Of a DNA stretch of 64,000 nt, positions 15,731 to 44,713 are shown one piece after another. The DNA lies in contig NZ_CP011968.1 in assembly GCF_001077535.1 (NCBI RefSeq), forward strand, positions 3,286,001 to 3,350,000. The letters are read 5' to 3'. Source of the stretch: Clostridioides difficile ATCC 9689 = DSM 1296 (GTDB lineage: Bacteria > Bacillota > Clostridia > Peptostreptococcales > Peptostreptococcaceae). Numbering within the stretch: position 1 is the stretch's first letter; each line of letters starts with the position of its first letter. The position numbers and the translations under genes were made by a program. The notes beneath the pieces are model-generated. The model worked only from the letters and a program-made list of their open reading frames with translations. It had not been told where the DNA came from and searched no databases.

Positions 15731-17119
15731 TTATACTTCTTTTATCATATTAGGAGATAGAATATCATTAAGAGCTTCTGTCATAGTTGGATGTGCATAA
15801 ACACGGTCTCTTAAATATGTATACTCTACTTCTAAATCTACAGCTAATTGAATAAGATGGATAATCTCACTTGAATTTTCACATATCATACTAGCTCCAA
15901 GTATCTTATTGGATTTTTTATCTATCACTATTTTTATAAACCCATCTGCCTTGCCAATCTGTTTAGCTCTTGGAATTGCTTCTACTGGCATCTTTGCCAC
16001 TAATACTTCATATCCTTTTTCTTTAGCTTGCTTAACATTAAGACCAACTCTTGAAAATGCTGGACTTATAAATATAGAATTTGGGATATTCTTTCTATCA
16101 TTAGTTGTTCTAGTCTTATCTCCAAATAACTGATTAATAACTATGCGATAATCATCCAATGAAATATAAGTAAATTGTGGACCTCCATTTATATCTCCTA
16201 TAGCCCATATATGCTCTTTATTAGTCTTAAGAGTTTCTGAGACTTTAATAAATCCTCTTTCATTTAATTCTATACCTGCATTTTCTAGCCCTAGCCCTTC
16301 AGTGTTTGCTTTTCTTCCTGTAGCTACAAGTATCATATTACTTGTTAATTCTTTAGATTTACCATCTACTTCATATTCTACTATTGCTAATTCAGAAACT
16401 TCTTTAATCTCTTTTATATTTGCATTATTAACAATTTTTACATTTCTCTTTGCAAGTAATTTTATTATTTCTTCTGAATCCTCAACATCTTCATTTGGTA
16501 AAATGCCATTATTAGAGTTTAATATTGTAACTTCTGCTCCAAATGAACTATAAATACCAGCAAATTCTAAACCTATAAATCCAGCTCCTATAATTGTCAT
16601 TTTTTTAGGTAAAGTTCTTAGATTCATAAGAGACTCACTATCATATACTATATTCTTATTTTCAATTCCCTTAATATTAGGTATAAATGGTCTTGAACCA
16701 GTATTAATAAATATATTATCTGCTACTAACTCATAAATTTCATTTTCAGTTTTGACTTGAACTGTTTTTTCATCAATGAAAGTTCCCATTCCTGTGAATA
16801 TAGTTACATTCTCATTTGAATTTAATTTATTATAGTTAGCTTCTCTGAGTTTTGTAATTAAAGTTTCTTTTTTATCTATAGCTTTCTCATATTCAGCTTG
16901 TACTTCATCCCAAGAATTTATATTCTTTGTTTTTACGCTGTTTGCTGAATTTTCTAAGCTTTTTGTTGGTATACATGCCACATTTACACATGTTCCACCA
17001 TACATCTTGTTTGACTTTTCTATTAAAGCTACTTTTAATCCCCTGTTTGCCAAATCCCCTGCTAATGTTTTTCCACCTTTTCCAAATCCTATTATTATAG
17101 CATCAAATGTTTTTTTCAT
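15731..17119 (-). CDS. RclA/MerA-like pyridine nucleotide-disulfide oxidoreductase
   Basis: Two-domain FAD/NAD(P)H flavoprotein of 462 residues with a C-terminal dimerisation domain. FAD motif is GFGKGGKTLAGDLA (about 12-25), the redox-active pair is in GGTCVNVACIPTK (about 42-54), the NAD(P) motif is IGAGFIGLEFAGIYSSFGAE and the C-terminal His/Glu pair is in YAHPTMTEAL. Spacing CVNVAC and overall pattern match RclA-like and hypothiocyanous-acid reductases more than lipoamide dehydrogenase, which would sit with a 2-oxoacid dehydrogenase. Its promoter carries the same upstream element as the HxlR and thioredoxin genes, so a role in thiol or hypohalous-acid stress is inferred. Confidence 0.85.
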   Translation of the reverse strand: MKKTFDAIIIGFGKGGKTLAGDLANRGLKVALIEKSNKMYGGTCVNVACIPTKSLENSANSVKTKNINSWDEVQAEYEKAIDKKETLITKLREANYNKLNSNENVTIFTGMGTFIDEKTVQVKTENEIYELVADNIFINTGSRPFIPNIKGIENKNIVYDSESLMNLRTLPKKMTIIGAGFIGLEFAGIYSSFGAEVTILNSNNGILPNEDVEDSEEIIKLLAKRNVKIVNNANIKEIKEVSELAIVEYEVDGKSKELTSNMILVATGRKANTEGLGLENAGIELNERGFIKVSETLKTNKEHIWAIGDINGGPQFTYISLDDYRIVINQLFGDKTRTTNDRKNIPNSIFISPAFSRVGLNVKQAKEKGYEVLVAKMPVEAIPRAKQIGKADGFIKIVIDKKSNKILGASMICENSSEIIHLIQLAVDLEVEYTYLRDRVYAHPTMTEALNDILSPNMIKEV

Positions 17120-17156
17120 ATAAAATTCAACCCTTTCTTGTATTGTTTATACTTTT

Positions 17157-17204
17157 ACTATAACAAGATTATTTAGGTGGTACAATTAGGCACTTTTTTG
17201 TAAC
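17157..17204 (-). promoter_or_regulatory. Redox-regulon promoter, copy 1 (flavoprotein gene)
   Basis: Minus strand: GTTACAAAAAAGT, two bases, CTAATTG (17183-17204) overlapping the -35 TTGTAC (17180-17185), then 17 bp and -10 TATAGT (17157-17162). The 22-bp element and its register to the -35/-10 are the same at 19137-19184 and 44666-44713. Confidence 0.8.
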
Positions 17205-17239
17205 CTTAAATTGATTTATAAACTTATACTTAAATACTT

Positions 17240-18517
17240 TTATTTATTTCTCTGATTTTCAATAAATGATGCCATAGTTGCCTTATCCATAGCTCCTGGA
17301 ATATACTGAGTTACATATCCTTCCTTGTCAATTATAAATGTAGTTGGAAAAGCATTAATTCCATATTGATATGCTAATGCTCCATCTTCATCAAGTACAA
17401 CAGGGAATGTATAACCTTGGTCTTTTAAGAAGTTAACTACATGTTCCCTTGAACCTTCTCTACCTAAATTAGGTGAAGCTACTCCTAAAATTACTACATC
17501 ATCATTATTTTTATTATAGTCTTTATACAGTTGTTCTATATAAGGCATTTCTTCTTTGCATGGAGGACACCATGTAGCCCAGAAATTTAAGAATACAACT
17601 TTGCCTTCATAATCACTTAATTTATGTGTTTTACCATACTGGTCTGTTAAAGTAAAATCAATAGACTTTATTCTATCTTCATCATTAGACCCTTTATCAT
17701 TATTGTCATTATTAGAGTCTTTTTGACTATCATTACCATCAGAATTTTCTTCTTTATCAGTAGAATTTTCTCGCTTATTTTCTTCTTGCTTGCTTTCAAT
17801 TTTACTATTTTGTGACGTATTAAAGTGTTTGCTTATACTTCCAAATCCATTTACCATCATTAATATTCCTGATACTATAAGTATAATCCCACCTATTTTT
17901 TTAATAATTTCCATGTTAGATCTTATCTTATCTATAGTTTTAAATAGTTTACTGTAAAACATAGCTGTAATTATGAATGGCAAAATAAAACCAATAGTAT
18001 ATACTGCTATTAAAAGATTGGCACTAAGATGATTACTTGAACTTGAAACCATGACTAATACAGATGCCAATATTGGACCAATACAAGGTGTCCATCCAAA
18101 ACTAAACGTAAAACCTAATATAAAAGCTGTTATTGCTTTCATTTCTTTAAACTTAACATTAAATCTTTTTTCTCTATTCAATATTGAAGATTTAATTATT
18201 CCCATGTAAAATAATCCCATGATAATAATTATAATCCCACCAATAAACATTATTAAATCTTTATTTTCATTAAAAAACATACTCAATACTTTTACTGATG
18301 AACCCAATATAAAGAATGTTGTTGAGATTCCAAGAGCAAAAAATATAGTATTTTTAAATAAAGAACTTCCTATAAAACTCGTCTTTCCTTCTTTTAAATT
18401 TTCTACACTACTATTTGACAATATACTCAAATAAATAGGTAAAATTGGCAGTATACATGGTGAAAAGAATGATACTATACCTTCTATAAATACTAAAAAT
18501 AAATTTACATTTTGCAA
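17240..18517 (-). CDS. CcdA-TlpA fusion: membrane disulfide reductase with thioredoxin-like domain
   Basis: Fusion of 425 residues. The first about 230 form a CcdA-type six-helix membrane domain with the conserved cysteine segments FFSPCILPILP and GWTPCIGPIL. A very polar Asn/Asp/Lys/Glu-rich linker of about 45 residues follows. The last about 145 residues form a TlpA/ResA thioredoxin fold with WCPPC active site and the cis-Pro region NAFPTTFII. The membrane domain passes electrons from cytoplasmic thioredoxin to the extracellular domain, which reduces disulfides or peroxides outside. Fusion of these two proteins is known in Firmicutes. It follows the HxlR gene by 136 bp and is probably cotranscribed with it. 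Confidence 0.92.
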   Translation of the reverse strand: MQNVNLFLVFIEGIVSFFSPCILPILPIYLSILSNSSVENLKEGKTSFIGSSLFKNTIFFALGISTTFFILGSSVKVLSMFFNENKDLIMFIGGIIIIIMGLFYMGIIKSSILNREKRFNVKFKEMKAITAFILGFTFSFGWTPCIGPILASVLVMVSSSSNHLSANLLIAVYTIGFILPFIITAMFYSKLFKTIDKIRSNMEIIKKIGGIILIVSGILMMVNGFGSISKHFNTSQNSKIESKQEENKRENSTDKEENSDGNDSQKDSNNDNNDKGSNDEDRIKSIDFTLTDQYGKTHKLSDYEGKVVFLNFWATWCPPCKEEMPYIEQLYKDYNKNNDDVVILGVASPNLGREGSREHVVNFLKDQGYTFPVVLDEDGALAYQYGINAFPTTFIIDKEGYVTQYIPGAMDKATMASFIENQRNK

Positions 18518-18653
18518 ATTAAAATTCCTCCTTATTTTATTTCCAATATTACAATCCTATTTCTAAATTAAAATCTAACTAAAAAATTATGTAATTTTAA
18601 TACATTTTTCTACTCATAGCTTAATTAAATTTTCATTACTTACAGAGTAAATT

Positions 18654-18989
18654 TTAGTATTTATCACAATTTAAATTTTTATTGCTCCACATAATCATTT
18701 TTTCCATGACAGGAAGCAATCGTAATCCTGATTCACTTAAAAAATATGTTGACTCTACAACATTATTAACCAACTTTTTTTGGTTGACTATAATCCCCTG
18801 TTCAATTAAAAAATCTAGTTGTTGAACTAACATTTTCTTACTACAGTCTGGTATAGCTCTTTGTAGCTCTCCAAATCGTTTTTTATCTTCTTGTATTTTC
18901 CATATAATTATAGCCACCCATTTTTTACCTAAAATATTTGATAAAGCTTCTACTGGACAATTATATATCATATCATCTATGTTGTACAT
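18654..18989 (-). CDS. HxlR-family (HypR-like) redox-type transcriptional regulator
   Basis: Winged-helix regulator of 111 residues. The HxlR signature runs from YNCPVEALSNILGKKWVAII through RFGELQRAIPDCSKKMLVQQ to LDFLIEQGI. Cysteines at residues 11 and 49 match the arrangement in Bacillus HypR, where an N-terminal Cys and Cys49 of the partner subunit form the activating disulfide; that comparison is from memory of the family. AGGAGA precedes ATG 18989. It lies upstream of the CcdA-TlpA gene, and its own promoter carries the element found at the flavoprotein and thioredoxin promoters, so it is the likely autoregulated activator of these genes. Confidence 0.88.
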   Translation of the reverse strand: MYNIDDMIYNCPVEALSNILGKKWVAIIIWKIQEDKKRFGELQRAIPDCSKKMLVQQLDFLIEQGIIVNQKKLVNNVVESTYFLSESGLRLLPVMEKMIMWSNKNLNCDKY

Positions 18990-19136
18990 TTTATTCTCCT
19001 CTTTTCTTTATTTAATTTATTAAACAAACTTTTATAGCAATATATTTATTAATATTATAAATATACCTAGCTTTATTTAATTAAAATTTTTATTATATAT
19101 ACTCCTATTACAAACTATTTTAGATTTTATGTAATT

Positions 19137-19184
19137 AATATATCAGTTTTGTAAATACATAACAATTAGTAACTTTTTTGTAAC
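19137..19184 (-). promoter_or_regulatory. Redox-regulon promoter, copy 2 (HxlR gene)
   Basis: Minus strand: GTTACAAAAAAGT, two bases, CTAATTG (19163-19184), -35 TTGTTA (19160-19165), 17 bp, -10 TATATT (19137-19142). Here the element reads as a direct repeat GTTAC-N6-GTTAC. It leaves a leader of about 140 nt before the HxlR gene. Confidence 0.8.
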
Positions 19185-19400
19185 TACATCAACTCTATTA
19201 ATATACAATCTTTCACTCATTTTATTAAAATTTTATTATTTTAAATTATATATAAAATCACTCTAATATAATAATTCTTTATTTAAACTGCTTATCCTGT
19301 TAAACTAATTATTCTACTTCAATAAATTCTATATTAAATACTAAATTCATACTTAAATACTAAAACCATTCATTAATATTTACCCAAATTTATACAAATT
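19185..19400. other. AT-rich intergenic stretch
   Basis: No open frame, RNA or clear signal seen between the HxlR-gene promoter and the mannosidase terminator. Confidence 0.6.
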
Positions 19401-19434
19401 AAAAAGTCTGGCAGATTAATATCTGTCAGACTTT
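19401..19434 (-). terminator. Terminator of the mannosidase/PTS operon
   Basis: AAAGTCTGGCAGAT (19403-19416) pairs with ATCTGTCAGACTTT (19421-19434) around a TAAT loop; on the minus strand a T-run follows. It lies 24 bp past the mannosidase stop. Confidence 0.88.
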
Positions 19435-19457
19435 AAACAATAAACTTACTTTTACAC

Positions 19458-22058
19458 TTATAAATCCAATAGTATTGAAATAACGTCAAAAGGTGCTATT
19501 TCATATACCTGTTCTTCTTCTACATCTTCTATTGCATTTACAATTTTCCCATTTCTATTTTTAAATATTTGCTCATCCAATATCATTCTATTACTACTCG
19601 GATTTTCCACTCTTATTATAAATTTATCTTTACTGTAATAAGAAGGATAACATGCTGATATAAGATAGTTTTCTGGTAAAGATATTATTTCTAATTCTCT
19701 ACTTACAGTTTTATTGACAATTGATTTTTGAATCTTATTATCTATACGATATAAAAAGAAATTGTAATCCTGTAATTGATAATTTACACATTCTCTTAGA
19801 TAATTGTGGGTTAAATTCGCAATTTCCAATTCATCAAATGATTTAGAATCCATATATATTGCAAATGAAAATTCTAATTCCTTAAGCATTTGAGCTTTAT
19901 CTGTTTTAATTCTTATATGACCTTTTTTAGTTGTATCTCCAGAAGCACGTCCTGGTCTATATAATAAATCAGGCTTTCCTAGTTCATCTGTAGTAGCAAG
20001 TAAGGTCAATGCAATTTCATCTTCAATATGTTGATACTCTTTTATTCCTCTAGTAAATACAGTACAACTTCTATTTTGGTTTGTAAGCGTAATATTACTT
20101 TCCAAAGGTTCTAAATCTATAGGCATTTCACTGTAAATATCTTCCCAGTTGTCTAAAACTCCATTTTCTCTTGTTATATATCCAAATGGCAATGATGCTA
20201 TGTTTTTATTATCTTTTATATCAGTTTTTATATGAACACGTAGTCTATGATTATATATCGTGTTATCAACACAAAGTTTTACATCCATCAATGGGTTTTC
20301 TTTAGATAAGACAATACTTACTTTTACATTTAATTTCCCATTAAGATATTTGTTTTTTCTATCTTCTAATGTAAGTGGTAGTAAAGTAGTACCTTTAACC
20401 ACCATTTTTTCATATCCTAAAGCTTTTTCTGTATACACTTTATCAAACGAAAGTTTTATATCCTCATCATTTTTTAGTGGAGAAAAGTCATAGGTATCAC
20501 CTGCATTACCACTATCTTTTAATGTTAAAAAGTTTGATATGTAAGTTCCATCTTTAAGTTGTAAATTTAAGCTTCCATCTTCATATATTATCTTATAATT
20601 ATCATTAGATATAAAAGTGTCATTAGATTTATCAAGTGACACCATTTCTTTATCACTTAATTCAAAACTAACAACTTTATAACCAAGTGCAGGAAGCTGT
20701 ATATTTATTCTTACTTTTAATATATAATATCCTGGTTCTTCAATAAATATATTACCAGCAGGTGTTTCTTCTAATACATTTTCTCTCGGTTTTACATAAG
20801 TTTCTTCAATTATAGTAGCATCTAAATTATCTTTAAAATAAATATTTTTACTATCACTTACAACTTGTATCTCTTTATATCCATTAAAACGCTTAGCTTC
20901 TGTATTGAATACTAAAATATCATTTTTAGATAATTTAAGCCCTTCTGAAATCTTTTTTACAATAGTATTTTCAATACTGTCACATATTTCATTTGCTTCT
21001 CTTATACGGTGAAGAATATCATCTGTTACAGTATCAGTTACACATCCAGCTAAACTATCGTGTGCTTGTCCTTCCAAAAGTTTTTTCCATGTATTTATAA
21101 GTAACTGATTGCTTATTTCAATTTTACTCTTTTTAGCAATTACTAATAATGGCTCTATTCTTTTAATCAGCTTGTTTTCTAGTTTATCACATGCTAATTT
21201 TATATCCATTCTACTAGAACCAATTGATTTATGTATTCTTGCTAATACAGGTTCTCTAAATTCACCTCTATAGCTTTCTAGTGATTCTATAGACTTTATA
21301 TATTTTAAAAACTCTTGATATGAACTCGTTATATATGAATACTTTCCGATATCATTAATCGCTTTAATTTTATTTTTGAAATCACCTATTATATTTAACT
21401 GGTCATTCCCAGAAGGTATTAACACCTCATCTACATCAGTATATGATTTAATAAAATCAATAGCTGGGTCTAAGCGTCCATTAACATACTTTAATGAAGG
21501 CTCTAAAAGCATACCAGTTCCATATCCATGTGGCATATTTACTGCATATATATAACTTTCTCCATTTAAGCTTTTCCACTTAAAATATGGTGATTGAACC
21601 TGTTTACCAAGATGTATACCTCTCCAAAAGAATATATTATCAAGACCTACATGCTTTAATAGTATAGGCATCTGTGCATTAAATCCAAATGTATCTGGCA
21701 AATACCCAATTTTCATATACTTACCATACTTTTTACTTTCAAAAATTCCAATCATTAAGTTTCTTAAAATAGACTCTCCTCTAGCAAAGAATGCATCAGT
21801 TTGAGTAAACCATGGTCCAATATGTAGTCTATCTTCTTTTATTAACTTTTTAATGATTTCTATTTTTTCTTTGTGTAATTGTACATAATCATCCAAAATA
21901 GAAAGTTGTCCATCAAGTACAAAACTTACATCTGGATTACGTTCTAATTCATCAATTACATCTGTAAATAGTTGTTCACTAAGTACTAATGCATCTCCAG
22001 AAGTAAAATACCATTCTCTATCCCAGTGTGTATGATTAACAATATGTGCTTTTATCAT
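19458..22058 (-). CDS. mngB: GH38 alpha-mannosidase (mannosylglycerate hydrolase-like)
   Basis: Cytoplasmic glycoside hydrolase family 38 enzyme, 866 residues, about the MngB length. The N-terminal metal and substrate motif HTHWDREW is at residues 9-16, and the nucleophile Asp is expected in GYLPDTFGFNAQ (about 120). The middle three-helix region with GQAHDSLAGCVTD (about 335) and the C-terminal beta domain follow. It is cotranscribed behind fructose-family PTS genes, the same combination as E. coli mngAB, so it probably cleaves a phosphorylated alpha-mannoside such as 6-phosphomannosyl-glycerate. Other alpha-mannosides are possible. GAGGAG-like site precedes ATG 22058. Confidence 0.9.
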   Translation of the reverse strand: MIKAHIVNHTHWDREWYFTSGDALVLSEQLFTDVIDELERNPDVSFVLDGQLSILDDYVQLHKEKIEIIKKLIKEDRLHIGPWFTQTDAFFARGESILRNLMIGIFESKKYGKYMKIGYLPDTFGFNAQMPILLKHVGLDNIFFWRGIHLGKQVQSPYFKWKSLNGESYIYAVNMPHGYGTGMLLEPSLKYVNGRLDPAIDFIKSYTDVDEVLIPSGNDQLNIIGDFKNKIKAINDIGKYSYITSSYQEFLKYIKSIESLESYRGEFREPVLARIHKSIGSSRMDIKLACDKLENKLIKRIEPLLVIAKKSKIEISNQLLINTWKKLLEGQAHDSLAGCVTDTVTDDILHRIREANEICDSIENTIVKKISEGLKLSKNDILVFNTEAKRFNGYKEIQVVSDSKNIYFKDNLDATIIEETYVKPRENVLEETPAGNIFIEEPGYYILKVRINIQLPALGYKVVSFELSDKEMVSLDKSNDTFISNDNYKIIYEDGSLNLQLKDGTYISNFLTLKDSGNAGDTYDFSPLKNDEDIKLSFDKVYTEKALGYEKMVVKGTTLLPLTLEDRKNKYLNGKLNVKVSIVLSKENPLMDVKLCVDNTIYNHRLRVHIKTDIKDNKNIASLPFGYITRENGVLDNWEDIYSEMPIDLEPLESNITLTNQNRSCTVFTRGIKEYQHIEDEIALTLLATTDELGKPDLLYRPGRASGDTTKKGHIRIKTDKAQMLKELEFSFAIYMDSKSFDELEIANLTHNYLRECVNYQLQDYNFFLYRIDNKIQKSIVNKTVSRELEIISLPENYLISACYPSYYSKDKFIIRVENPSSNRMILDEQIFKNRNGKIVNAIEDVEEEQVYEIAPFDVISILLDL

Positions 22059-22177
22059 TTATTCTCCTCTGTTCTTTATCTTTTATATTTAAGTCTAAAC
22101 TGAATGTTTAACACTTTATTTAGTATAAGATTCATATTGAATATAGCTTATAACACGTCTTAAATAGTTATTAAATT

Positions 22178-23278
22178 TTAAGATTCCCACTCTGCTTCAT
22201 CAAAATCATCATCTTCAAATTCATCATCCTCAATCACTGGATTTCCACGCAATACTATAACTAATCCAGCTACAATTACTGTTCCAACTGCTATTGATAA
22301 CACATACATTGGCCAATTCTCTACTGTAAACCATCCATAAAATCCACTAATTGGAGTTGCATTTACTGAACCTAAACCAACTGCCATAGCTGAAGCAATT
22401 GCTGTTCCAATTACACATGAAGGTATTACTTTTAATGGAGATTCTACTGCAAAAGGAATTGCTCCTTCACTTACTCCAATTAAACCCATTATAAGAGATG
22501 ATTTTCCAGCTTCACGTAACTGTTTATTATATTTTTGTTTTGCTAGTATAGTAGCAAGTCCCAATCCTAGTGGTGGTATAACTATTCCTACCATTGCAGC
22601 AGTGTTAGGCGCATAAATTCCACTTGTTAATAATGCAAGTGATGTTGTTAAAGCTGCTTTATTAACTGGTCCACCTAAGTCAACTGCCATCATAGCCCCT
22701 ATAATAGCTGCCATTAATATCTGATTTGTACCAGATAATCCATTTAACCAATTTTCTAATCCAGTATTTAATGTGGCAAAAGGTATACCTATCACATAAT
22801 TGATTAATACAACAGTGATTAATGTCCCAAATACTGGTACTATAAATATTGGTACTATTGAAGCTGCTGATTTTGGTAATTTAACATGATTTTTAATAAA
22901 CAAACATGTATATCCTGCTATAAGACCAACTGCCAAAGCTCCTAAAAATCCTGCACCTATATCTTTAGCAATCATACCTCCAACAAGACCTGGTACAATA
23001 GCTAATTTATCAGCTATAGAAAATCCTATAAATGCAGCAATTACAGGAAACATTAATCCTAATGCAGTACCTCCAAACCCATCTAAATCATGTAATAATC
23101 TAACAATACTACTAGCACTTTCTGCATATTTAGCATCCCATATATCTGGTATATTATAGAAAGAACCACCTACACGAGATATCGCCATTATCATAGCACC
23201 TGCAATTACTAATGGAATCATATATGAGATTCCAGTTAAGACATGCTTTTTTAACTCAGAGACTATCTTTTTCAACAT
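22178..23278 (-). CDS. PTS fructose-family EIIC component
   Basis: Membrane channel of a fructose/mannitol-class PTS, about ten helices, 366 residues. It starts LKKHVLTGISYMIPLVIAGA, has the family segment DLGGPVNKAALTTSLAL (about 205) and ends in an acidic tail (DDEFEDDDFDEAEWES). I place the start at ATG 23278: GGAGGG lies 7 bases before it, while the in-frame ATG at 23293 overlaps that site. It follows the EIIB gene with the ribosome site just past the EIIB stop, implying coupled translation. With EIIA, EIIB and the mannosidase it forms a probable mannosylglycerate uptake system, encoded as three proteins where E. coli MngA is one. Confidence 0.9.
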   Translation of the reverse strand: MLKKIVSELKKHVLTGISYMIPLVIAGAMIMAISRVGGSFYNIPDIWDAKYAESASSIVRLLHDLDGFGGTALGLMFPVIAAFIGFSIADKLAIVPGLVGGMIAKDIGAGFLGALAVGLIAGYTCLFIKNHVKLPKSAASIVPIFIVPVFGTLITVVLINYVIGIPFATLNTGLENWLNGLSGTNQILMAAIIGAMMAVDLGGPVNKAALTTSLALLTSGIYAPNTAAMVGIVIPPLGLGLATILAKQKYNKQLREAGKSSLIMGLIGVSEGAIPFAVESPLKVIPSCVIGTAIASAMAVGLGSVNATPISGFYGWFTVENWPMYVLSIAVGTVIVAGLVIVLRGNPVIEDDEFEDDDFDEAEWES

Positions 23279-23293
23279 TATATTTCCCTCCAT

Positions 23294-23614: not shown

Positions 23615-23616
23615 TT

Positions 23617-35728: not shown

Positions 35729-35788
35729 ATTTGACTCCTCCCCCTAGATAAAAATAACATTACACATTAGTAAAATTTATTATTTTAA

Positions 35789-36813: not shown

Positions 36814-36893
36814 ATACAACAAATCTATACAATCAATCTTATAAAACATAAGTTTATAGGTATTTATAAATATTAACCTTGTATTTTAGTTCT

Positions 36894-37364
36894 TTATTTA
36901 AACTCAATTACAGTATCTTTCCCACCTTCAACACTATTGCCTACATTACATGTATTCATATTGTACTCTGAATGATTAGTTATTGTAACTGGAGTAATAA
37001 GTGATATACCCTTTGATTCAATCAAAGGACGGTTAATTTTCAACATTGGTGTTCCTTCCTTCACTTGTTCTCCCATACTCACCAATACCTCAAAACCTTC
37101 GCCTTTTAAATTTACAGTATCTAAACCAACATGAATAAGAAGTTCCATCCCATTTTCTAATTCTATTACAAATGCATGTTTAGTCTCTGCTACTACTACT
37201 ATCTTTCCATTGATTGGAGCATATACAATGTCTCCTGTAGAATCTATAGCTACACCCTCTCCCATAATTTTTTGAGAAAATACACCATCTTGTATTTTAG
37301 ATAACTCTATTACTTTTCCTGATATGGGTGATTTTATTGATTTTTTTTTAAACATTTTGAACAT
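36894..37364 (-). CDS. PTS glucose-family EIIA protein
   Basis: Cytoplasmic EIIA-Glc/Crr-type phosphocarrier of 156 residues. The active-site His is residue 78 in LLIHVGLDTVNLKGEGF, with the supporting His at 63. PISGKVIEL at the N-terminus and PMLKINR follow the family. It donates phosphate to the IICB protein encoded at 39182. Last gene of licT-IICB-malY-SIS-IIA. An AAGGAGAG site lies 8 bases before ATG 37364. Confidence 0.92.
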   Translation of the reverse strand: MFKMFKKKSIKSPISGKVIELSKIQDGVFSQKIMGEGVAIDSTGDIVYAPINGKIVVVAETKHAFVIELENGMELLIHVGLDTVNLKGEGFEVLVSMGEQVKEGTPMLKINRPLIESKGISLITPVTITNHSEYNMNTCNVGNSVEGGKDTVIEFK

Positions 37365-37387
37365 AAAAACTACTCTCCTTTTTGCTT

Positions 37388-37987
37388 TTATCCATTGTTA
37401 GCTGTTTTTAACTTCTCACCTAAACTTCCTCCTGGATGGTACTTATAAAAATCTGAAGAACCAAAATTACTACTCTTAGATAATGCACATGCAATAGAAT
37501 CTCCTAAAACCAAAGTAATTGTAGATGATGTTGTTGGTGCTAGATTTAAATGGTCTGCTTCATCCTTTGCAGGATATATTAAAGCATAATCACACTCTTT
37601 TGCCAGTACTGAATTTCTGTTTGAAGTAAATGCAATTGTCTTAGAACCTATTGCTTTAATATATTTTATACAGTTTACCACTTCCATAGAATTTCCACTA
37701 TTTGATATTAAAATTGTAATATCCTTACTTTCAATCATTCCTAAATCTCCATGCACTGCCTCTGTTGCATGTACAAAAAAGCTAGGTGTACCAGTACTAG
37801 CAAATGTAGCTGCCAATTTCTTACCTATATGTGCAGATTTTCCTACACCCATAAAAATTACTTTGCCTTCACAATTTGCAATTTCACTAACTATACTTTC
37901 ATATTCTATTCCTGCTTCATCTATTAAACATCTTATGGCATTCATTTCAGTAGTCATAACATCAACCATTGTTTTTAAATATCCCAT
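37388..37987 (-). CDS. SIS-domain sugar isomerase-like protein
   Basis: Protein of 199 residues with a single SIS (sugar isomerase) domain of the KpsF/GutQ type. Blocks are VIFMGVGKSAHIGKKLAATF (about 44), GTPSFFVHATEAVHGDLGMI (about 72), ISNSGNSMEVVNCI and the C-terminal GDSIACALSK then FYKYHPGGSLGEKL. It lacks the CBS pair of full KpsF proteins. It probably isomerises a phosphosugar or hexulose phosphate formed by the neighbouring PTS. It starts 17 bp after the MalY-like gene. Confidence 0.88.
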   Translation of the reverse strand: MGYLKTMVDVMTTEMNAIRCLIDEAGIEYESIVSEIANCEGKVIFMGVGKSAHIGKKLAATFASTGTPSFFVHATEAVHGDLGMIESKDITILISNSGNSMEVVNCIKYIKAIGSKTIAFTSNRNSVLAKECDYALIYPAKDEADHLNLAPTTSSTITLVLGDSIACALSKSSNFGSSDFYKYHPGGSLGEKLKTANNG

Positions 37988-38004
37988 AACTATCTCCCTT
38001 CCTA

Positions 38005-39189
38005 CTATAAAATTCTTTTTGCAATATAATCCATAGTTTTTTTAATCCTATTTAAACCATCTTCAAGTTTTTCTCTTGAACATGCCACATTTAACCTTAA
38101 ATAAAACTCACCTTCTTCACCATATACAGACCCCGACATAATAGCAACTTCTCCAATATCCATCAATAATTTTTGGAATTTCTCACCACTTATTTTAAGT
38201 TCGGAAAAATCTATCCAAGCAAAGTAACAGCCTTCTGGCATGACCAATTTCAATGGTTCTAAATTATCTTTTATATAATCAATCGTATATTTAAGATTCT
38301 CTTTAAGGTATTTTAATAGTTCATCTAACCAATATTCGCAGTCATCATAACAGACCATTGTAGCTAATATTGCTAGAATTGCTGGCGAATTTACAAAATC
38401 ACGGTATCTAGTGATATTTTCAAATTTATTTCTAATACCTTCATTTGGTATAATCACATATGACCCAGTCAATGCTGGTATATTGAAAGATTTAGACGCT
38501 GATGTACAAATGAATACAGAATCTAAATAGTCCTTTGCAACATTTAAGATAGGTGTCATTCTATTGTCATATACAATATCCATGTGTATATCATCTGATA
38601 TTATCTTGACATCATTATTCTTACAAATTCCTATCATCTTAACAAGTTCTAACTCACTCCATACTCTACCAATTGGATTGTGAGGATTACATAAAATAAA
38701 TATCTTAGATTTTTTACACTTTTTCTCAAAATCATTAAAATCAATTGAATAGAATCCATTCCTATTTACAAGATGTGACTTTATAATATTACGATTGTTA
38801 TTTGTTATCACATCATAAAAAGCATTGTATGCAGGAGTATTTATAAGGATTCCATCTCCTTCATTACTTAACATCTCAATAAGTTTGCTAATTGAATACA
38901 TTACACTTGGACTATAATATATCCAGTTACTATCAACGCTACAATTAAATCTTTTAATATACCAATTCGTAACTGAATTTCTAAAATCATCATGTTTCCA
39001 TCTACTGTATCCCAAAACTCTATGATTTAACCTTTCCTGCAACACCTCTGTTATTTCAAATGGAAACTCTAAATCCATATCTGAAATTGTAAAAGGAAGC
39101 AAATCCTTCTTACCAAATCTATCTTCTACATAGTCCCACTGGGTACAATATGTACCCAATCGGTCTACTTTTTTATCAAAATTAATCAT
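38005..39189 (-). CDS. patB: MalY/PatB-type PLP aminotransferase (cystathionine beta-lyase)
   Basis: Fold-type I PLP enzyme of 394 residues, MalY/PatB branch. The N-terminus shows LPFTISDMDLEFPFEI, the core has ILCNPHNPIGRVWS (about 166) and DDIHMDIVY, and the PLP lysine is in CTSASKSFNIPAL. PatB/MalY proteins cleave C-S bonds of cystathionine and similar thioethers; E. coli MalY also binds the MalT regulator. Its ATG overlaps the end of the IICB gene by 8 bp, which implies tight coupling to the sugar transport genes, a pairing like malXY. Confidence 0.9.
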   Translation of the reverse strand: MINFDKKVDRLGTYCTQWDYVEDRFGKKDLLPFTISDMDLEFPFEITEVLQERLNHRVLGYSRWKHDDFRNSVTNWYIKRFNCSVDSNWIYYSPSVMYSISKLIEMLSNEGDGILINTPAYNAFYDVITNNNRNIIKSHLVNRNGFYSIDFNDFEKKCKKSKIFILCNPHNPIGRVWSELELVKMIGICKNNDVKIISDDIHMDIVYDNRMTPILNVAKDYLDSVFICTSASKSFNIPALTGSYVIIPNEGIRNKFENITRYRDFVNSPAILAILATMVCYDDCEYWLDELLKYLKENLKYTIDYIKDNLEPLKLVMPEGCYFAWIDFSELKISGEKFQKLLMDIGEVAIMSGSVYGEEGEFYLRLNVACSREKLEDGLNRIKKTMDYIAKRIL

Positions 39190-40759
39190 TACATGCCTCC
39201 AAATGACCTTCCATAGCTTTATCCATCTGCTTTCTTAAAGAATACACTTGAGTTCCTATAATTACTTGTATTGTATGCTCATCCAATTTAACAACTGCTA
39301 TACCACCAGCCTCTTTAATTGCATCCTCATTTATTAATGATACATCTTGTAGTTTTAAACGCAATCTAGTTACACAATTATCTAGTGATAATATATTAGA
39401 TTGACCACCTAAAGCAGATATCATTTGTTGTCCTTTATATGTAGACAAATTTTTGAAATCTGAACCATTTCCTTCAGATACTTTTATTTCTTTATCCTCA
39501 CGTCCTGGGGTCTTTATATTAAACTTAATAATTGCCCACTTAAATACAAAATAGTATATTGCAAAATATAAAACTGCTACTAATACTGCTATTGGCCATC
39601 CTGTAGCTGTTCCTCTTAACACACCAAAACTTATAAATGCAATTAAATCTCCTGTGAATCCCATCAACACGCCTAAGTATGGAAGTACCATGTTTGCTAG
39701 ACCATTCATAAATGTATGGAAAGCAAATAATGCTGGTGATATGAATAAGAATAGAAACTCTATTGGTTCACTTATACCACCTATAATAACTGTCAACACC
39801 CCTGATATTAAAAGTCCTTTAAGTGCCTTTCTATTTTCTGGTTTTGCTGTACGGTAGATAGCCAATGCAGCACCAGCTAATCCATATTGAATCATCAATT
39901 TACCTTGTTCCATTTTACCAGCTAAATCAAGAGGTATAATCTGATTATTTTCTACATATGCCATAAACATGTTCAATGTACCAAAGTACGTTTCTCCATC
40001 AATAACAGCAGTTCCACCTATTGGTGTAAAACGGAATACGGATGTTACAAGATGATTTAGTCCAAATGGAATTGTAACTCTTTCTGCCACTGCATATGAA
40101 AAATATCCTAATGGTCCTGCTGAAGAAATCCATCTTCCTAAACTTTGGAATGCATTGAAAAATGGTGGCCAAACAATAGGTATTAATAATCCAACTATAC
40201 TCATAACTATTAAACTAACAATTGGAACTAATCTTGGTCCACTGTAGAATCCTAATGATTCTGGTATCTTTAAATTACTAACTTTATCATATATTGCATA
40301 AACAATTAATCCTGCTACAATACCACCTAAAACACTTGTATTATATGTTTGTATACCCATAATCATAGCTTGACCATTAGTTGACATCTGTTCTGCTGGT
40401 ACTAACAAATCAGCTCTTGTTAAATAAAAATTTGTACCTATATGCATTGCTATAAATCCTACTAATCCTGAAAAAGCACCAAACTCTTTTTCTTTTTTTA
40501 ATAATCCTAGTGGAATTGCCATTGCAAATAATGCTCCCAAGTTGTTAAATGCAAATAATCCTATTGTTAACATGAAGTTTAAAACTAAGTTAACATATTC
40601 ATTCCCTAAAAATGGAACCATTTCAATCATCTTAGGGTCTGTAAAACCTGCCCCAAGTCCTAGCATCATCCCAGAAACACTAAGTAGTGCTATTGGGAAC
40701 ATAAACGTTTTTCCTAACATTTGGAAGAAGTTCCATAAACCTAACTTATTTTTTTTCAT
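39182..40759 (-). CDS. malX: PTS glucose/maltose-family EIICB (MalX-like)
   Basis: Membrane sugar permease fused to a C-terminal EIIB domain, 525 residues. The EIIC part spans about 1-420 with ten or so helices and the family segment YAVAERVTIPFGLNHLV (about 220). EIIB occupies about 445-525, with the phosphorylated Cys in LDNCVTRLRLKL. It imports and phosphorylates a glucose-type sugar or glucoside using EIIA from 36894. Expression should depend on LicT-type antitermination at three sites between 40806 and 41113. The sugar is not proven; MalX resemblance suggests glucose, maltose or an alpha-glucoside. Confidence 0.9.
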   Translation of the reverse strand: MKKNKLGLWNFFQMLGKTFMFPIALLSVSGMMLGLGAGFTDPKMIEMVPFLGNEYVNLVLNFMLTIGLFAFNNLGALFAMAIPLGLLKKEKEFGAFSGLVGFIAMHIGTNFYLTRADLLVPAEQMSTNGQAMIMGIQTYNTSVLGGIVAGLIVYAIYDKVSNLKIPESLGFYSGPRLVPIVSLIVMSIVGLLIPIVWPPFFNAFQSLGRWISSAGPLGYFSYAVAERVTIPFGLNHLVTSVFRFTPIGGTAVIDGETYFGTLNMFMAYVENNQIIPLDLAGKMEQGKLMIQYGLAGAALAIYRTAKPENRKALKGLLISGVLTVIIGGISEPIEFLFLFISPALFAFHTFMNGLANMVLPYLGVLMGFTGDLIAFISFGVLRGTATGWPIAVLVAVLYFAIYYFVFKWAIIKFNIKTPGREDKEIKVSEGNGSDFKNLSTYKGQQMISALGGQSNILSLDNCVTRLRLKLQDVSLINEDAIKEAGGIAVVKLDEHTIQVIIGTQVYSLRKQMDKAMEGHLEACND

Positions 40760-40805
40760 AATTTTCCCCTCCTATTTTTATCTAAAAACATAATCAAATT
40801 TATAG

Positions 40806-40884
40806 AAAAACCTAAATCAAAAAACTTAATTTAATAATTAAGTTTAATGATTTAGGTTTTGCCTGCTCAACCAGTTACAATCCT
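40806..40884 (-). promoter_or_regulatory. RAT antiterminator and overlapping terminator, unit 3 (promoter-distal)
   Basis: Minus strand: AGGATTGTAACTGG, GCAGGCAAAACCT (ribonucleic antiterminator, 40855-40884), overlapping a terminator whose arms are CCTAAATCA and TGATTTAGG (ends 40811 and 40857) followed by a T-run. Confidence 0.88.
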
Positions 40885-40919
40885 AAAAGTCACTGTCTGT
40901 ATTTGATTGTATCTAATAA

Positions 40920-40998
40920 AAAAACCTAAATCAAAAAACTTAACCTAATAGTTAAATTCAATGATTTAGGTTTTGCCTGCTTAACCAGTTACAATCCT
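40920..40998 (-). promoter_or_regulatory. RAT antiterminator and overlapping terminator, unit 2
   Basis: A near-identical copy of unit 3, displaced by 114 bp: AGGATTGTAACTGG (to 40998), GCAGGCAAAACC, then the same CCTAAATCA/TGATTTAGG terminator beginning at 40925 with a run of seven A/T. Confidence 0.88.
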
Positions 40999-41032
40999 AA
41001 AAGTCACTGTCTGTATTTTGATTGTATCTAAT

Positions 41033-41113
41033 AAAAAAACCTAAATCAAAAAACTTAATCTAATAGTTAAGCTCAATGACTTAGGTTTTGCCTGCTTTAT
41101 CAGTTACAATCCT
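41033..41113 (-). promoter_or_regulatory. RAT antiterminator and overlapping terminator, unit 1 (overlaps licT stop)
   Basis: Third copy, 115 bp from unit 2. The RAT sequence AGGATTGTAACTG starts inside the TAG stop codon of licT (41112-41114). The terminator arms are CCTAAGTCA and TGATTTAGG, so one pair differs from the other copies. Confidence 0.87.
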
Positions 41114-41948
41114 AACAACCACTGTTTGTTATTTTATTTATGTGAATCATTAAATATAATTCTTCTTCTTTACTAATCTTATATTCAAATCTGTCTAATA
41201 CCAATGCTGCAATTTCTTCAGTACACACTTTAGGTTTATTGTAATTTTTATTCACTAACTTATACATATCTTCAATATCACTATCATTGTAAGTTTCTTT
41301 TCGGAGAATCCTTTGAACAAAAAACTTTAAGTGAGTTATAAGTCTAGTATAATTTAATGAATTTACATCCAATTTAAATCCATGTACTTCTTCAATTATC
41401 TGAATAACTTGTTTTGAAAACTCTAGTATATTAATACCTTCATCTTTTTGAGAATTTTCCAAACCATTGATTATGTGAATAGCAATATATCCTGCTTCAT
41501 CTTCAGGCAATTTTATTCCTATCCTTTTTTCAATTTCATCAATTGCCCATAATCCAAATTCAAATTCTTCCCTATAAAGTTGTTTTGTCTCATTCAATAT
41601 TAAGTTTGGTAATTTTATACCTTGTTTTTCTCTTTGGACAGCAAATTCTATGTGACTAGTTAAGGCTAATATTATTGAATCATTCACTTGAGTATTTAAA
41701 ACTTCATTAGCCTTTTCTATAATTTCTTCTGAAATTTTAAAGTATTCAATAGAGGTCTTATTAAGTATTTGATTGTATTTGTCCCTTTGATCGTCTTGAA
41801 CAAAATATTTCTTAGAAATCAAATTTTCATCTATCAAATCGCCTACTTTTTTCTTAAATCCTACTCCAGCACCAGTGACAATTATTTCTGTGCCATCTTC
41901 TAGGGAGCTTACTACTACATTGTTATTAAATATCTTTTTTATATTCAC
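41112..41948 (-). CDS. licT: LicT/BglG-family transcriptional antiterminator
   Basis: RNA-binding antiterminator of 278 residues. The CAT RNA-binding domain is residues 1-55 (MNIKKIFNNNVVVSSLEDGT, VTGAGVGFKKKVGD); two PRD domains follow (about 70-170 and 175-278) with His residues in SHIEFAVQREKQG, YIAIHIINGLE, THLKFFVQRIL and MIHINKI that PTS proteins phosphorylate. It binds RAT hairpins and prevents termination. Three matching RAT sites lie directly downstream before the IICB gene, the clear target. I see no RAT upstream of licT itself. Confidence 0.93.
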   Translation of the reverse strand: MNIKKIFNNNVVVSSLEDGTEIIVTGAGVGFKKKVGDLIDENLISKKYFVQDDQRDKYNQILNKTSIEYFKISEEIIEKANEVLNTQVNDSIILALTSHIEFAVQREKQGIKLPNLILNETKQLYREEFEFGLWAIDEIEKRIGIKLPEDEAGYIAIHIINGLENSQKDEGINILEFSKQVIQIIEEVHGFKLDVNSLNYTRLITHLKFFVQRILRKETYNDSDIEDMYKLVNKNYNKPKVCTEEIAALVLDRFEYKISKEEELYLMIHINKITNSGC

Positions 41949-42600
41949 TATAAATCCCCTCTAAAAAAATTCTCTCATCACACTTACATAGTATAGTATA
42001 TTTAATTTAATGTCAATATTTAAAATTTTACTTTCGTATATATTTTGCAATTTACCCTATAATACTACAATAACAAAATATTTTTTATTGTCATCAATTA
42101 ATTTGTCATATTTTATCATATTTTCATTGAAAGATATTTAATTATTTCTTATGTATATTTAATTATTTAAAATCAATCGACATTTTATATTACAAAAATT
42201 ATTTTCAATTTTTTCCAGTATTTTCAAGTATTTCAACTTAATTATATATATATTTATTGAAATTAAGATTATAGCTTTGTACTAATCTTTTCTCAAATAT
42301 ATACATTAGTAATATAATTTTTAATTTATATAAATTAAATTAAAATTTTTTATAATTTTTTTTATAAAATTATTTGTATTATATTTTGTATTTTTTATAA
42401 AATTATTATACTTGTACATCTTTTATAACATATAAAATCTTTTTTTCTAATTATATACAATATATTTTCCATTATGTTCTAATCAATTTCTTTACTATTT
42501 TTACAACTTTATTAGTCATATTCATAATTATTTCTAATTAGTGTTTAACATTTTATGTAAAATTTATAAAAAAATGTATATAAATTAAAATAAGTGACTA
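41949..42600. other. Very AT-rich intergenic region
   Basis: Nothing coding. It must contain the licT promoter on the minus strand. Composition is almost entirely A/T with many homopolymer runs. No structured RNA recognised. Confidence 0.5.
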
Positions 42601-42657
42601 TACTAAAAATATGATACGGATAAACAATAAGTTCAACCTATCTCCCCCAAAATCAAG

Positions 42658-42691
42658 TGAGCTACAGTTTCCCCCAACTGTAGCTCATTTT
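42658..42691 (+). terminator. Orphan terminator hairpin, possible small-RNA 3' end
   Basis: TGAGCTACAGTT (42658-42669) pairs perfectly with AACTGTAGCTCA (42676-42687) around a TCCCCC loop, then TTTTCGTG. A second TCCCCC lies just upstream at about 42641-42647. No gene precedes it on this strand, so it ends either an unannotated small RNA or a prematurely terminated leader. Confidence 0.55.
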
Positions 42692-42731
42692 CGTGTAATT
42701 TAATAAACATCTCAACAAGAATTAATTAACG

Positions 42732-42829
42732 AAACCCCTTATAAAAACATAACATATATTAAACAAGCTCTTGATTAAAACTTGAGCTTTTTTAATAAAA
42801 AACAGAATAGTTTATTAGATAAGGGGTTT
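42732..42829 (+). promoter_or_regulatory. Structured leader sequestering the ribosome binding site
   Basis: AAACCCCTTAT (42732-42742) is fully complementary to ATAAGGGGTTT (42819-42829), which contains the AAGGGG ribosome site of the gene at 42834. Between them is a terminator-like hairpin, AAGCTC (42765-42770) with GAGCTT (42784-42789), followed by six T. Pairing of the outer arms would hide the ribosome site. Confidence 0.6.
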
Positions 42830-42833
42830 TTTT

Positions 42834-44108
42834 ATGCAATTCATGGATGTATCTAAATACATTGAAGGTGCAAATCTTAAAGTTAAAACTAAAAATGGTG
42901 AAACTGTTAAAAGAATATATTTTAACAACTCTGCCACTCCATTAGTTTTAAAAAACGTAATAGATAACTTAAACTGTGAGATTCCTTGGCTTACTTATAT
43001 TAATGCTCCAGGAATAATCTCAGAAAAAAATACTTTAAAATATGAAAATGTACGCTCTACTATCCTCAAACTTATTGATGGAGACGAAGAAAAGGATTCT
43101 GTTATTTATGTCAAAAATGCTACAGAAGGAATAAACTTCTTAGCAAAATTTTTTAAAGATGAAAATCCAGATAAATTTGTTATTACCACAGCAATGGAGC
43201 ATATGGCTAATTACCTGCCTTTTAAAGTTAATTTTCCTACAAAAGTTGTTGGAATTACAGAAAAAGGAGAACTTGATTTATGTCAATTAGAGAATATATT
43301 TAAAAATTATGCTGGTAATGTATCTCTCGTTACAGTTACAGGAGCTAGTAATGTCACAGGTATAACCACTCCTATATATGAAATAGCAAGAATAGCTCAT
43401 AAGTATGGTGCAAAGATATTGGTGGATATTGTGCAAGTAATTCAGCATAAACCTTTTTCAATGATGCCACATGAATGTGATGAGCATATAGATTTTGTTG
43501 TTTTTAGTGCTCATAAATGTTATTCTCCACTAAATGGAGGAGCTCTGGTAGGACCTAAAAAATTCTTTGAAAAATTTAATCCTGTACTATATGGCTCAGG
43601 TTCTACCAAATTTGTAAATGATAACAAAATACTATATGCAAACGTACCCCAACGTTTTGAAGCAGGATACCCAGAGTATTTTGGAACTCTTGCAATGGGA
43701 AAAGCACTGAACACTTTAAATAAAATTGGTCTAAACAGAATTTCAAAATACGAAAGAGAATTATTTTTATATGCTAAAGAAGAAATGAGTAAAATACCTA
43801 ATATAATAATATATGGAGATAAATCAAATAATGTAATTATCCCAAATATATCTTTTAATATAAGTAATATGTATTACAAAGATGTAGCAAAATATTTAGT
43901 TGATAACTTTGGAATAGAAACTGGAGCTGGAGTAGTAGGTGCAGATATTTATGTACAAAAATTATTAGGTATAAATCCAAAAGAGGCATACGTCAGATTT
44001 ATGAGGGAAAATCCTGTAGGTCTTGTTAGGATAAGCTTAGGAATGTACAATACTTTTGATGAGGTGGATAGCTTTATACATGCTATTAAAACTTTGGCTT
44101 TTAAATAA
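42834..44108 (+). CDS. Class V aminotransferase/cysteine desulfurase-like protein without the catalytic Cys
   Basis: PLP enzyme of 424 residues with the SufS-like fold. The PLP lysine lies in FSAHKCYSPLNGG (about 224-236), and ATEGINFLAKF, TAMEHMANYLPF and TGASNVTGI follow the family. In SufS the persulfide-forming Cys sits in a R(A/T)GHHCA loop; here the matching region reads ETGAGVVGADIYVQKLLG with no Cys. The usual VDAAQ motif is VDIVQ. So it is probably not a desulfurase; another class V reaction (aminotransferase, lyase, epimerase) is more likely. AAGGGG lies 7 bases before ATG 42834 in a structured leader. Confidence 0.85.
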   Translation: MQFMDVSKYIEGANLKVKTKNGETVKRIYFNNSATPLVLKNVIDNLNCEIPWLTYINAPGIISEKNTLKYENVRSTILKLIDGDEEKDSVIYVKNATEGINFLAKFFKDENPDKFVITTAMEHMANYLPFKVNFPTKVVGITEKGELDLCQLENIFKNYAGNVSLVTVTGASNVTGITTPIYEIARIAHKYGAKILVDIVQVIQHKPFSMMPHECDEHIDFVVFSAHKCYSPLNGGALVGPKKFFEKFNPVLYGSGSTKFVNDNKILYANVPQRFEAGYPEYFGTLAMGKALNTLNKIGLNRISKYERELFLYAKEEMSKIPNIIIYGDKSNNVIIPNISFNISNMYYKDVAKYLVDNFGIETGAGVVGADIYVQKLLGINPKEAYVRFMRENPVGLVRISLGMYNTFDEVDSFIHAIKTLAFK

Positions 44109-44242
44109 GCTTTTTCTATTCTTTTTTATCAATAAATAGAGAGTAGTTTTGTTTTCACAAAAAAGCAAATTATATCAACAGTCAATTTCATTAGCAATTA
44201 GACACTCATTTGTAACTATACAAACTATTTTACACTATACAA

Positions 44243-44272
44243 ACAAAAAACTCATTACAATGAGTTTTTTTG
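44243..44272. terminator. Bidirectional terminator
   Basis: AAAACTCAT (44247-44255) pairs with ATGAGTTTT (44260-44268), flanked by A-run and T-run, between the convergent aminotransferase-like and thioredoxin genes. Confidence 0.85.
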
Positions 44273-44314
44273 TTTATATATGAGATTTATTTTAATTACT
44301 TCAATTTACTTTAA

Positions 44315-44632
44315 TTACATATATGATTCAATTTTGTTTTTTAAATTCTCCTTAGGCATAAAACCTATTAATCTATCTACAGGTTTTCCATCCTTAAATA
44401 TTAGCATAGTTGGTACTGTAGATACTTCAAATTTCTGAGCTAATTCTATACTTTGGTCTATGTCCACCTTCAAGAAGTTTGCTTTTTCAACCATCTCATT
44501 TCCTAAAGCTTCATATATTGGTGATAGCATCTTACAAGGTCCACACCAAGTCGCAAAGAAATCTACAACTACTAAACCATCTTTATTTTCTACTTCATTT
44601 ATAAATTCATTATTATTTATTATTTTTACCAT
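44315..44632 (-). CDS. trxA: Thioredoxin
   Basis: Cytoplasmic thioredoxin of 105 residues with active site WCGPC (Cys 30 and 33) and cis-Pro in VSTVPTMLIF. It reduces protein disulfides using thioredoxin reductase, which is not in this window. Start at ATG 44632, 9 bases after AAGGAG; the ATG at 44641 overlaps that site. No reductase or GrdX-type neighbours are present. Its promoter carries the same upstream element as the HxlR and RclA-like genes at 15.7-19.2 kb, which argues for induction under thiol stress. Confidence 0.93.
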   Translation of the reverse strand: MVKIINNNEFINEVENKDGLVVVDFFATWCGPCKMLSPIYEALGNEMVEKANFLKVDIDQSIELAQKFEVSTVPTMLIFKDGKPVDRLIGFMPKENLKNKIESYM

Positions 44633-44665
44633 AATATACATCTCCTTTATTATCTTCTTGATATT

Positions 44666-44713
44666 AATATACTACGCCCTATATAACAGTTCAATTAGGC
44701 ACTTTTTTGTAAC
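44666..44713 (-). promoter_or_regulatory. Redox-regulon promoter, copy 3 (thioredoxin gene)
   Basis: Minus strand: GTTACAAAAAAGT, two bases, CTAATTG (44692-44713), -35 TTGAAC (44689-44694), 17 bp, -10 TATATT (44666-44671). Identical to copy 1 over the whole 22-bp element. Confidence 0.8.

Follow-up and report, generated by a model that had tools for sequence, protein, structure and literature searches.

Does a single regulator stand behind the thiol-redox genes that share a promoter element in one part of the Clostridioides difficile genome, and if so, which protein is it? The stretch analyzed here, referred to as the window, comprises 64,000 nucleotides of strain ATCC 9689 = DSM 1296 (positions 3286001-3350000 of contig 1, NZ_CP011968.1), and a preliminary description had placed one 22-bp element, GTTACAAAAAAGT-N2-CTAATTG, in front of three of its genes, which encode an RclA-like flavoprotein, an HxlR-type regulator, and a thioredoxin (TrxA2). 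The element is found exactly as described on the minus strand at 17183-17204, 19163-19184, and 44692-44713, in all three cases in the reported register TTGNNN-N17-TATANT. We propose, with a probability of about 0.75, that it is the operator of the HxlR protein (18654-18989) and that this protein is an oxidation-switched activator of a thiol-redox regulon. A shared regulon of this kind, with HxlR as its most likely regulator, is strongly supported by the uniqueness of the element, its co-occurrence with hxlR, and its adjacency to that gene.

The element, its register, and its place in the genome

Four matches to the element occur in the window when as many as three mismatches are allowed, compared with 0.04 expected from 100 shuffles; the fourth, at 44195-44216 (2 mismatches, same register, TATAAT), had been overlooked. 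When the whole genome (4,154,879 bases) was searched at the same threshold, five places were found, and none with a reversed-pattern control. A 56-position profile (R1) built from 49 sites, the window's own sites among them, gives the four window sites 35.8-48.0 bits and everything else in the genome at most 15.6 bits. Because this profile contains the window's own sites, we also made a leave-genus-out weight matrix from 43 of the 49 sites, with no Clostridioides site included; it scores the four sites at 52.2, 43.4, 42.8, and 33.4 bits, with -6.6 bits for the next-best place in the window, and its maxima in 10 random windows range from -3.5 to 5.6 bits. The genome-wide search that the preliminary description had called for thus does not find the element in front of many unrelated genes in this genome. 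At the fifth place, 3738870, between an HxlR paralogue and a nitroreductase gene, the score is 10.2 bits, the -10 stands at spacer 16, and there is a separate inverted repeat; it was therefore rejected as a member and appears to be another operator. None of the four sites precedes a nitroreductase gene. Viral contigs gave 0 exact matches to the composite element pattern, and plasmid records held nothing similar to the rclA-like promoter region (17100-17260).

The anatomy of the element was read from the 49 aligned sites, whose conservation is partly by construction because they had been selected by element similarity (at most 4 mismatches) and a -10 at spacer 17. Positions G1, A4, C5, G12, T13, C16, T20, and T21 are invariant, and, with the dyad axis falling between positions 8 and 9, every one of the 49 sites has complementary bases at G1/C16, A4/T13, and C5/G12, unlike at the other pairs. 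The element is an imperfect palindrome (RG-TTAC-N6-GTNNC-T) that abuts a weak -35; in Paraclostridium, it becomes a near-perfect palindrome, TAGTTAC-N6-GTAACTA, and the A-tract of the originally described consensus is dispensable, being TTTAAA in some Clostridium. The TTG of the -35 falls inside the element in 44/49 sites, the final three bases of the -35 hold almost no information, TTGACA occurs in 0/49, and an extended -10 TG is present in 36/49. For a set of 81 distinct (partly orthologous) sites, the -10 had played no part in the selection; 76 of these show a -10-like hexamer after a spacer of exactly 17, and the five exceptions are L094, L096, and L104, which are probably non-members, one trxA site in L082, and L081 (FeoA, spacer 18). 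If transcription starts ∼7 bases after the -10, the dyad is centered near -47. The placement directly against the -35, previously taken as that of an activator, is compatible with activation, as are this register and the poor -35.

Partnership of the element with hxlR

We sampled 393 genomes from the order and scored each for an orthologue of the window HxlR protein (E ≤1e-25) and for the element at no more than 1 mismatch. The element was present in 23 genomes, the orthologue in 22, and both in 21 (Fisher test, 1.6e-31; 1.8e-5 when counted by genus within the family, with 8 genera having both, 1 the element only, and 14 neither), counts that come from related, phylogenetically non-independent genomes. 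HxlR-family proteins as such are not predictive, since 57 of the 71 family genomes have a match at 1e-6 and 23 have the element; a comparison of this kind is blind to regulators that are present universally. The genome with an orthologue and no element at this threshold (G025) has sites at 2 mismatches, and two genomes (G057 and G063) have the element without the orthologue. In G057, the element is followed by ten trxA-start-like codons (7 of 10 residues as in a congener) and then a stop; likewise, in G068, where the orthologue is absent and the element was found by the profile, twelve such codons (7/12) are followed by a stop. Regulator and regulon seem to decay together in these two genomes. 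G067, G070, and G016 have weak profile matches only (at most 26.0 bits). The two elements that precede the 10-12 apparent trxA codons and stop, both in genomes without an hxlR orthologue, are themselves good ones (L105 4311 and L208 4420).

In 21 of the 22 genomes with the orthologue, no more than 175 bp separate an hxlR copy from an element (up to 3 mismatches); in the remaining one, the distance is 1796 bp, with trxA and ccdA-tlpA in between. In Clostridioides, the element is found 167-173 bp before hxlR, and each of the 7 congeners in the family set has kept both this element and the one preceding rclA. Outside Clostridioides, hxlR mostly trails trxA, trxB4, an orphan gene, or ccdA-tlpA in an element-headed row or, in an alternative layout, lies directly before the next element. 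The layout varies, therefore, and the partnership is constant. Upstream of ccdA-tlpA in G029, two elements flank a decayed second hxlR copy with 3 internal stops (L091 3700-4281).

Named genomes were scanned as well and yielded 79 loci, namely 31 orthologues (L117-L147, 49%-95% identity) and 48 others, the latter made up of one orthologue truncated at a contig end (L148) and distant HxlR proteins (L149-L195). A site with at most 3 mismatches is present within the retrieved stretch at 27 of the 31 orthologues and at none of the 48 other loci; L127 and L142 have a site at 4 mismatches, and L126 and L133, the two orthologues without one, are each the second copy of a genome with sites at another locus (L144 and L141). 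Counted by genome record, of which there are 29 (two with two copies), this amounts to 27/29 with a site of no more than 3 mismatches and 2/29 with one of 4. Fifteen of the 31 orthologues repeat genomes of the family set; among the 16 outside it, 14 have a site within 3 mismatches and the other two have one at 4. Site-bearing hosts include Clostridium cadaveris, C. thermobutyricum, C. mediterraneense, Niameybacter, Sporanaerobium, and Sarcina, and, as NCBI taxonomy assigns C. difficile to Peptostreptococcales, C. cadaveris to Eubacteriales, and Niameybacter and Sporanaerobium to Lachnospirales, the element-hxlR pair extends to Clostridium, Niameybacter, and Sporanaerobium of other orders. In four named C. 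difficile genomes, the identity of the HxlR orthologue is 89%-95%.

Regulon content and the loss of trxB4

To what genes does the element belong? In the scanned loci, which had been fetched for having the element or hxlR, 103 sites score at least 18 bits after removal of 11 duplicate loci, with a matrix that derives partly from the same sites. In 70 of them, the first gene is a thiol-redox gene or hxlR itself: trxA in 29, rclA in 18, hxlR in 9, trxB4 in 7, and ccdA-tlpA in 7 (one of these being a 52-codon piece in L095). Among the relatives, a further 23/103 sites precede other identified gene families (SDF-family symporter, 7; a 100-residue orphan, 6; LPG_synthase_C, 5; NlpC/P60-SH3, 4; isochorismatase, 1), and 10/103 have another first gene or none, with no match to the families tested.

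The features of the window are collected in Table 1. The rclA-like protein scores below the equivalog cut-offs of both NF040477 (RclA; 514.3 of 740) and NF041853 (MerA hypothiocyanous acid reductase; 495.4 of 650) and, judged by these profiles, is a relative of both. The ccdA-tlpA gene is probably cotranscribed with hxlR, whose promoter probably serves it as well; in some other clostridia, ccdA-tlpA is headed by an element of its own. The context of trxA2 is that of CD630_30330 as given in passages of PMC10880999, with the order trxA2, pyridoxal phosphate enzyme, and phosphotransferase system genes as described for strain 630.

Table 1. Regulatory and coding features of the proposed regulon (window coordinates)
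Feature	Position	Strand	Details
RclA/MerA-like flavoprotein disulfide reductase, 462 residues	15731..17119	-	family profile scans
rclA-like operator and promoter	17157..17204	-	element 17183-17204, -35 TTGTAC, 17-bp spacer, extended -10 TTGT-TATAGT; 48.0 bits
CcdA-TlpA fusion, 425 residues	17240..18517	-	membrane thiol-electron transfer and ResA/TlpA-like thioredoxin domain
HxlR/DUF24 regulator, 111 residues	18654..18989	-	PF01638 70.8 bits (cut-off 20.8); Cys11, Cys49, Cys108
hxlR operator and promoter	19137..19184	-	element 19163-19184, -35 TTGTTA, 17-bp spacer, extended -10 CTGA-TATATT; 40.2 bits
Orphaned trxB4 promoter	44169..44216	-	element 44195-44216, -35 TTGCTA, 17-bp spacer, extended -10 TATAAT; 35.8 bits
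trxB4 deletion junction	44171..44178	.	congener alignment with G008 (L074)
Thioredoxin TrxA2, 108 residues	44315..44641	-	TIGR01068 119.9 bits (cut-off 96.8)
trxA2 operator and promoter	44666..44713	-	element 44692-44713, -35 TTGAAC, 17-bp spacer, -10 TATATT; 38.4 bits

The fourth site heads no convincing gene on its strand; the first listed open frame has 64 codons, begins 480 bases away, and runs antisense to a desulfurase-like gene. In four congeners (G006, G007, G008, and G010), the matching site lies 72-73 bases before an intact gene for a 294-residue thioredoxin reductase, which by place and size is the trxB4 described in PMC10880999. Window DNA up to ∼44171 matches the trxB4 promoter of G008 (L074 4595-4640), and from ∼44178 on it matches L074 5758-6036, that is, DNA beyond trxB4, the coding part of which was matched to 5571; therefore, trxB4 has been deleted here and its promoter left behind. 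Accordingly, the gene downstream of trxA2 in the window is not trxB4, no coding remnant or homologue of trxB4 is found in the window (best tblastn E 1.1), and the promoter and the deletion junction persist. A separate loss has occurred in G009, where the site is retained and 29 C-terminal residues are left, and in G004 and G005 the fourth site is absent at up to 3 mismatches. The passages of PMC10880999 considered here describe trxB4 losses and an operon of trxB4 with trxA2, and they contain no mention of a separate trxB4 operator; the present comparison shows that trxB4 owns one in congeners and that its losses spared it. A known structured RNA was also considered for the fourth site and rejected, an Rfam scan of the window having returned only a cobalamin riboswitch elsewhere (RF00174, 5817-5998, minus strand, 110.2 bits).

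The 100-residue orphan family comes first after the element at L083 4391, L093 1091, L097 4840, L100 5281, L101 3056, and L124 3526, and in L100 and L101 it is followed by trxA and hxlR. It has no match in Pfam, NCBIfam, or PADLOC and is possibly a new thiol-stress protein.

The HxlR protein, its proposed mode of action, and the alternatives

Three cysteines mark the window protein and its orthologues. In the family alignment (row L035 being the window gene), Cys11 and Cys49 are present in 27/27 rows and Cys108 in 26/27, and among the named-genome orthologues the counts are 31/31, 31/31, and, where covered, 30/30. In the distant HxlR set, the aligned positions hold Cys in 35/38 covered (Cys11), 1/47 (Cys49), and 2/3 covered (Cys108) proteins. 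Cys11 and Cys49 had been likened to the sensing pair of Bacillus HypR. In a residue alignment made through paralogue alignments, Cys11 does align with HypR Cys14, but Cys49 falls on HypR Ile52, and the position of HypR Cys49 is Ile46 in the window protein, with Cys there in 0/31 orthologues; the shared number of the two Cys49 residues is a coincidence, and their positions are 3 residues apart in the same turn. HypR Cys49 is reportedly, in the structure paper, the second partner of Cys14. In an AlphaFold model (predicted local distance difference test score, 81), a turn at 46-50 holds Cys49, and directly after it comes the helix 51-63, which we take to be the recognition helix of the HxlR/DUF24 family. 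Among the nearest folds of the model are 7kd3, HypR (both states; template modeling score, 0.76), YodB, and HxlR.

The likeness to B. subtilis HypR (YybR; 4a5m and 4a5n), the hypO regulator, lies in the fold, the aligned N-terminal Cys, and, as passages of PMC6943732 indicate, a disulfide-stress regulon; the window protein differs in its second Cys, 3 residues off, in the additional conserved Cys108, and in a regulon of trxA, rclA-like, trxB, and ccdA-tlpA genes with no nitroreductase. The paralogue next to the nitroreductase gene (L104) is closer to HypR (2.7e-29, compared with 1.6e-11 for the window HxlR) and differs from PDB 7kd3 (CdTR_3200 of C. difficile) at a single one of 107 residues. 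HypO is a nitroreductase-like flavoenzyme. The L104 paralogue and its nitroreductase look like the true HypR-HypO counterpart, with an operator of their own. At that locus (G000:C1:3738870; L104 4268-5261), the paralogue gene is divergent from the nitroreductase gene, and a long inverted repeat, GGTACTATATTACAA-N12-TTGTAATATAGTACC, lies between them; in three congeners (L110-L112), the outer part of the right arm of the repeat is altered. B. subtilis HxlR (7bzd, 7bze, and 7bzg) and YodB (5hs7-5hs9) share the family and the fold; according to the entry titles, HxlR was solved with formaldehyde and YodB with quinone or diamide, and in both the residue aligned to Cys49 is Ile. The S. aureus HypR-MerA system is likewise a thiol-stress regulator of an RclA/MerA/Har-type flavin reductase (PMC10715087, PMC6943732), but that HypR is an Rrf2-type repressor, and thioredoxin genes are not mentioned with it in the excerpts of these papers.

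Under the proposed mechanism, a dimer of HxlR would bind the imperfect palindrome ∼47 bp before the transcription start. Thiol-oxidizing stress (oxygen, hypochlorite, hypothiocyanite, or diamide) would oxidize Cys11, Cys49, and Cys108 and so switch the protein on, and the oxidized dimer would bind the operator or reorient on it and bring RNA polymerase to these promoters, in which the -35 is poor and the -10 mostly extended. HxlR would thereby induce its own gene and those for TrxA2, the flavin reductase of RclA/MerA type, and the membrane thiol reductase CcdA-TlpA, as well as trxB4 where that has survived. The restored thioredoxin would then reduce HxlR and end the response. We favor an activator because of the fixed register, the poor -35, the extended -10, and the reported activation of HypR.

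Could HxlR instead be a repressor of the same regulon through the same operator, its reduced form covering the -35 and oxidation releasing it, as with YodB and CatR? Binding could block sigma, given that the TTG lies within the element (44/49); YodB is among the nearest folds; and passages of PMC6943732 describe OhrR, CatR, and YodB as inactivated repressors, one of them calling HypR a repressor too. However, the palindrome lies wholly upstream of the -35 and in a single register at 76/81 sites, a TTGACA -35 is seen in 0/49, and activation of HypR is also mentioned in the same source, so that we regard repression as unlikely, though a serious contender. It is rather improbable that HxlR responds to an aldehyde, a quinone, or a metal, like other HxlR/DUF24 proteins, instead of to thiol oxidation: by their titles, 7bzg holds B. 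subtilis HxlR with formaldehyde and DNA and 5hs9 holds YodB with quinone, and most proteins of the wider family have the N-terminal Cys as well (35/38 covered), but the targets are disulfide reductases and thioredoxin rather than aldehyde or quinone enzymes, Cys49 marks the subfamily (31/31 versus 1/47), and trxA2 is oxygen responsive, as passages of PMC10880999 report. That another transcription factor reads the element, with HxlR as merely one target, is quite improbable: a TrmB-like regulator gene (44899-45651) adjoins trxA2, and the abstract of PMC9426492 describes an archaeal member of the TrmB family as a thiol-based regulator, but hxlR lies no more than 1.8 kb from an element in all 22 genomes with the gene, and in genomes without it, sites precede apparently broken genes. 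The TrmB-like protein was rejected as the reader, its orthologue being confined to the genus (8/71 at E <1e-100; only 29%-33% identity in 12 other genomes) and not found (E 1e-25) in the regulon-bearing genomes G011, G012, G025-G028, G052, and G058. The TrmB-like gene is divergent from trxA2, and its matches in G006, G008, and G009 contain TAA.

Several observations weigh against HxlR as an oxidation-switched activator. The fixed register could be due in part to the overlap between the element and the TTG of the -35, and the co-occurrence counts share the relatedness of the genomes behind them. G063 has a 1-mismatch match without an orthologue, although its profile match ends before the -10 and another gene follows; the hxlR of G068 could lie in a gap because the assembly is 94% complete in 420 contigs; and G030 (75% complete), not counted because its orthologue, truncated at a contig end, scores only E 2e-20, has no element at up to 1 mismatch. 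Four second copies among the 26 orthologue copies lack a nearby element in the adjacency table, although a 37-bit site (G052:C1:345061) does adjoin one of them. In relatives, the SDF symporter, LPG_synthase_C, and NlpC/P60 targets are not obviously thiol genes. As cited in PMC8767335, an earlier study saw no significant change of trxA2 at 5% oxygen. The trxA1B1 genes share the oxygen induction, yet nothing in the genome beyond the four sites exceeds 15.6 bits. Binding, mutant, or stress-transcript data for hxlR or the rclA-like gene were not found in the literature searched, and no paper among the matches listed from the openly licensed literature connects clostridial thioredoxin or RclA with an HxlR protein.

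Passages of PMC10880999 report that trxA2 is induced at 1% oxygen from a sigmaA promoter and independently of sigmaB. Loss of both trxA1 and trxA2 confers sensitivity to oxygen and hypochlorite, and the single mutants tolerate oxygen; for trxA1B1 and trxA2 together, the authors deduce "a common still uncharacterized regulator." The trxA2 gene is also up at 1.5% oxygen (PMC8767335). Because no element is found elsewhere in the genome, HxlR as a candidate would explain trxA2 only and would not be the common regulator proposed in PMC10880999.

In Bacilli, Spx is a thiol-oxidation activator of trxA and trxB that acts just upstream of the -35; Spx is not known to have a dimeric palindromic operator, whereas a palindrome and an HxlR protein are found here. 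Tentatively, and at less than even odds, the three-Cys HxlR activator may be a dedicated sensor of thioredoxin status in a wide clostridial group, with a role like that of Spx, and the factor behind the sigmaB-independent oxygen induction of trxA2 in C. difficile. It would read disulfide stress via the Cys at the edge of the recognition helix, turn on thioredoxin, thioredoxin reductase, an RclA/MerA-type reductase, and a carrier of thiol electrons in the membrane by way of a single -35-fused operator, and be returned to its resting state by the induced thioredoxin. In the inflamed gut, C. difficile is exposed to oxygen and to oxidants from neutrophils, and a specific candidate regulator, its operator base by base, and a predicted three-operon regulon can now be named. 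As the orthologue is present in 29 named genome records, one experiment could annotate many.

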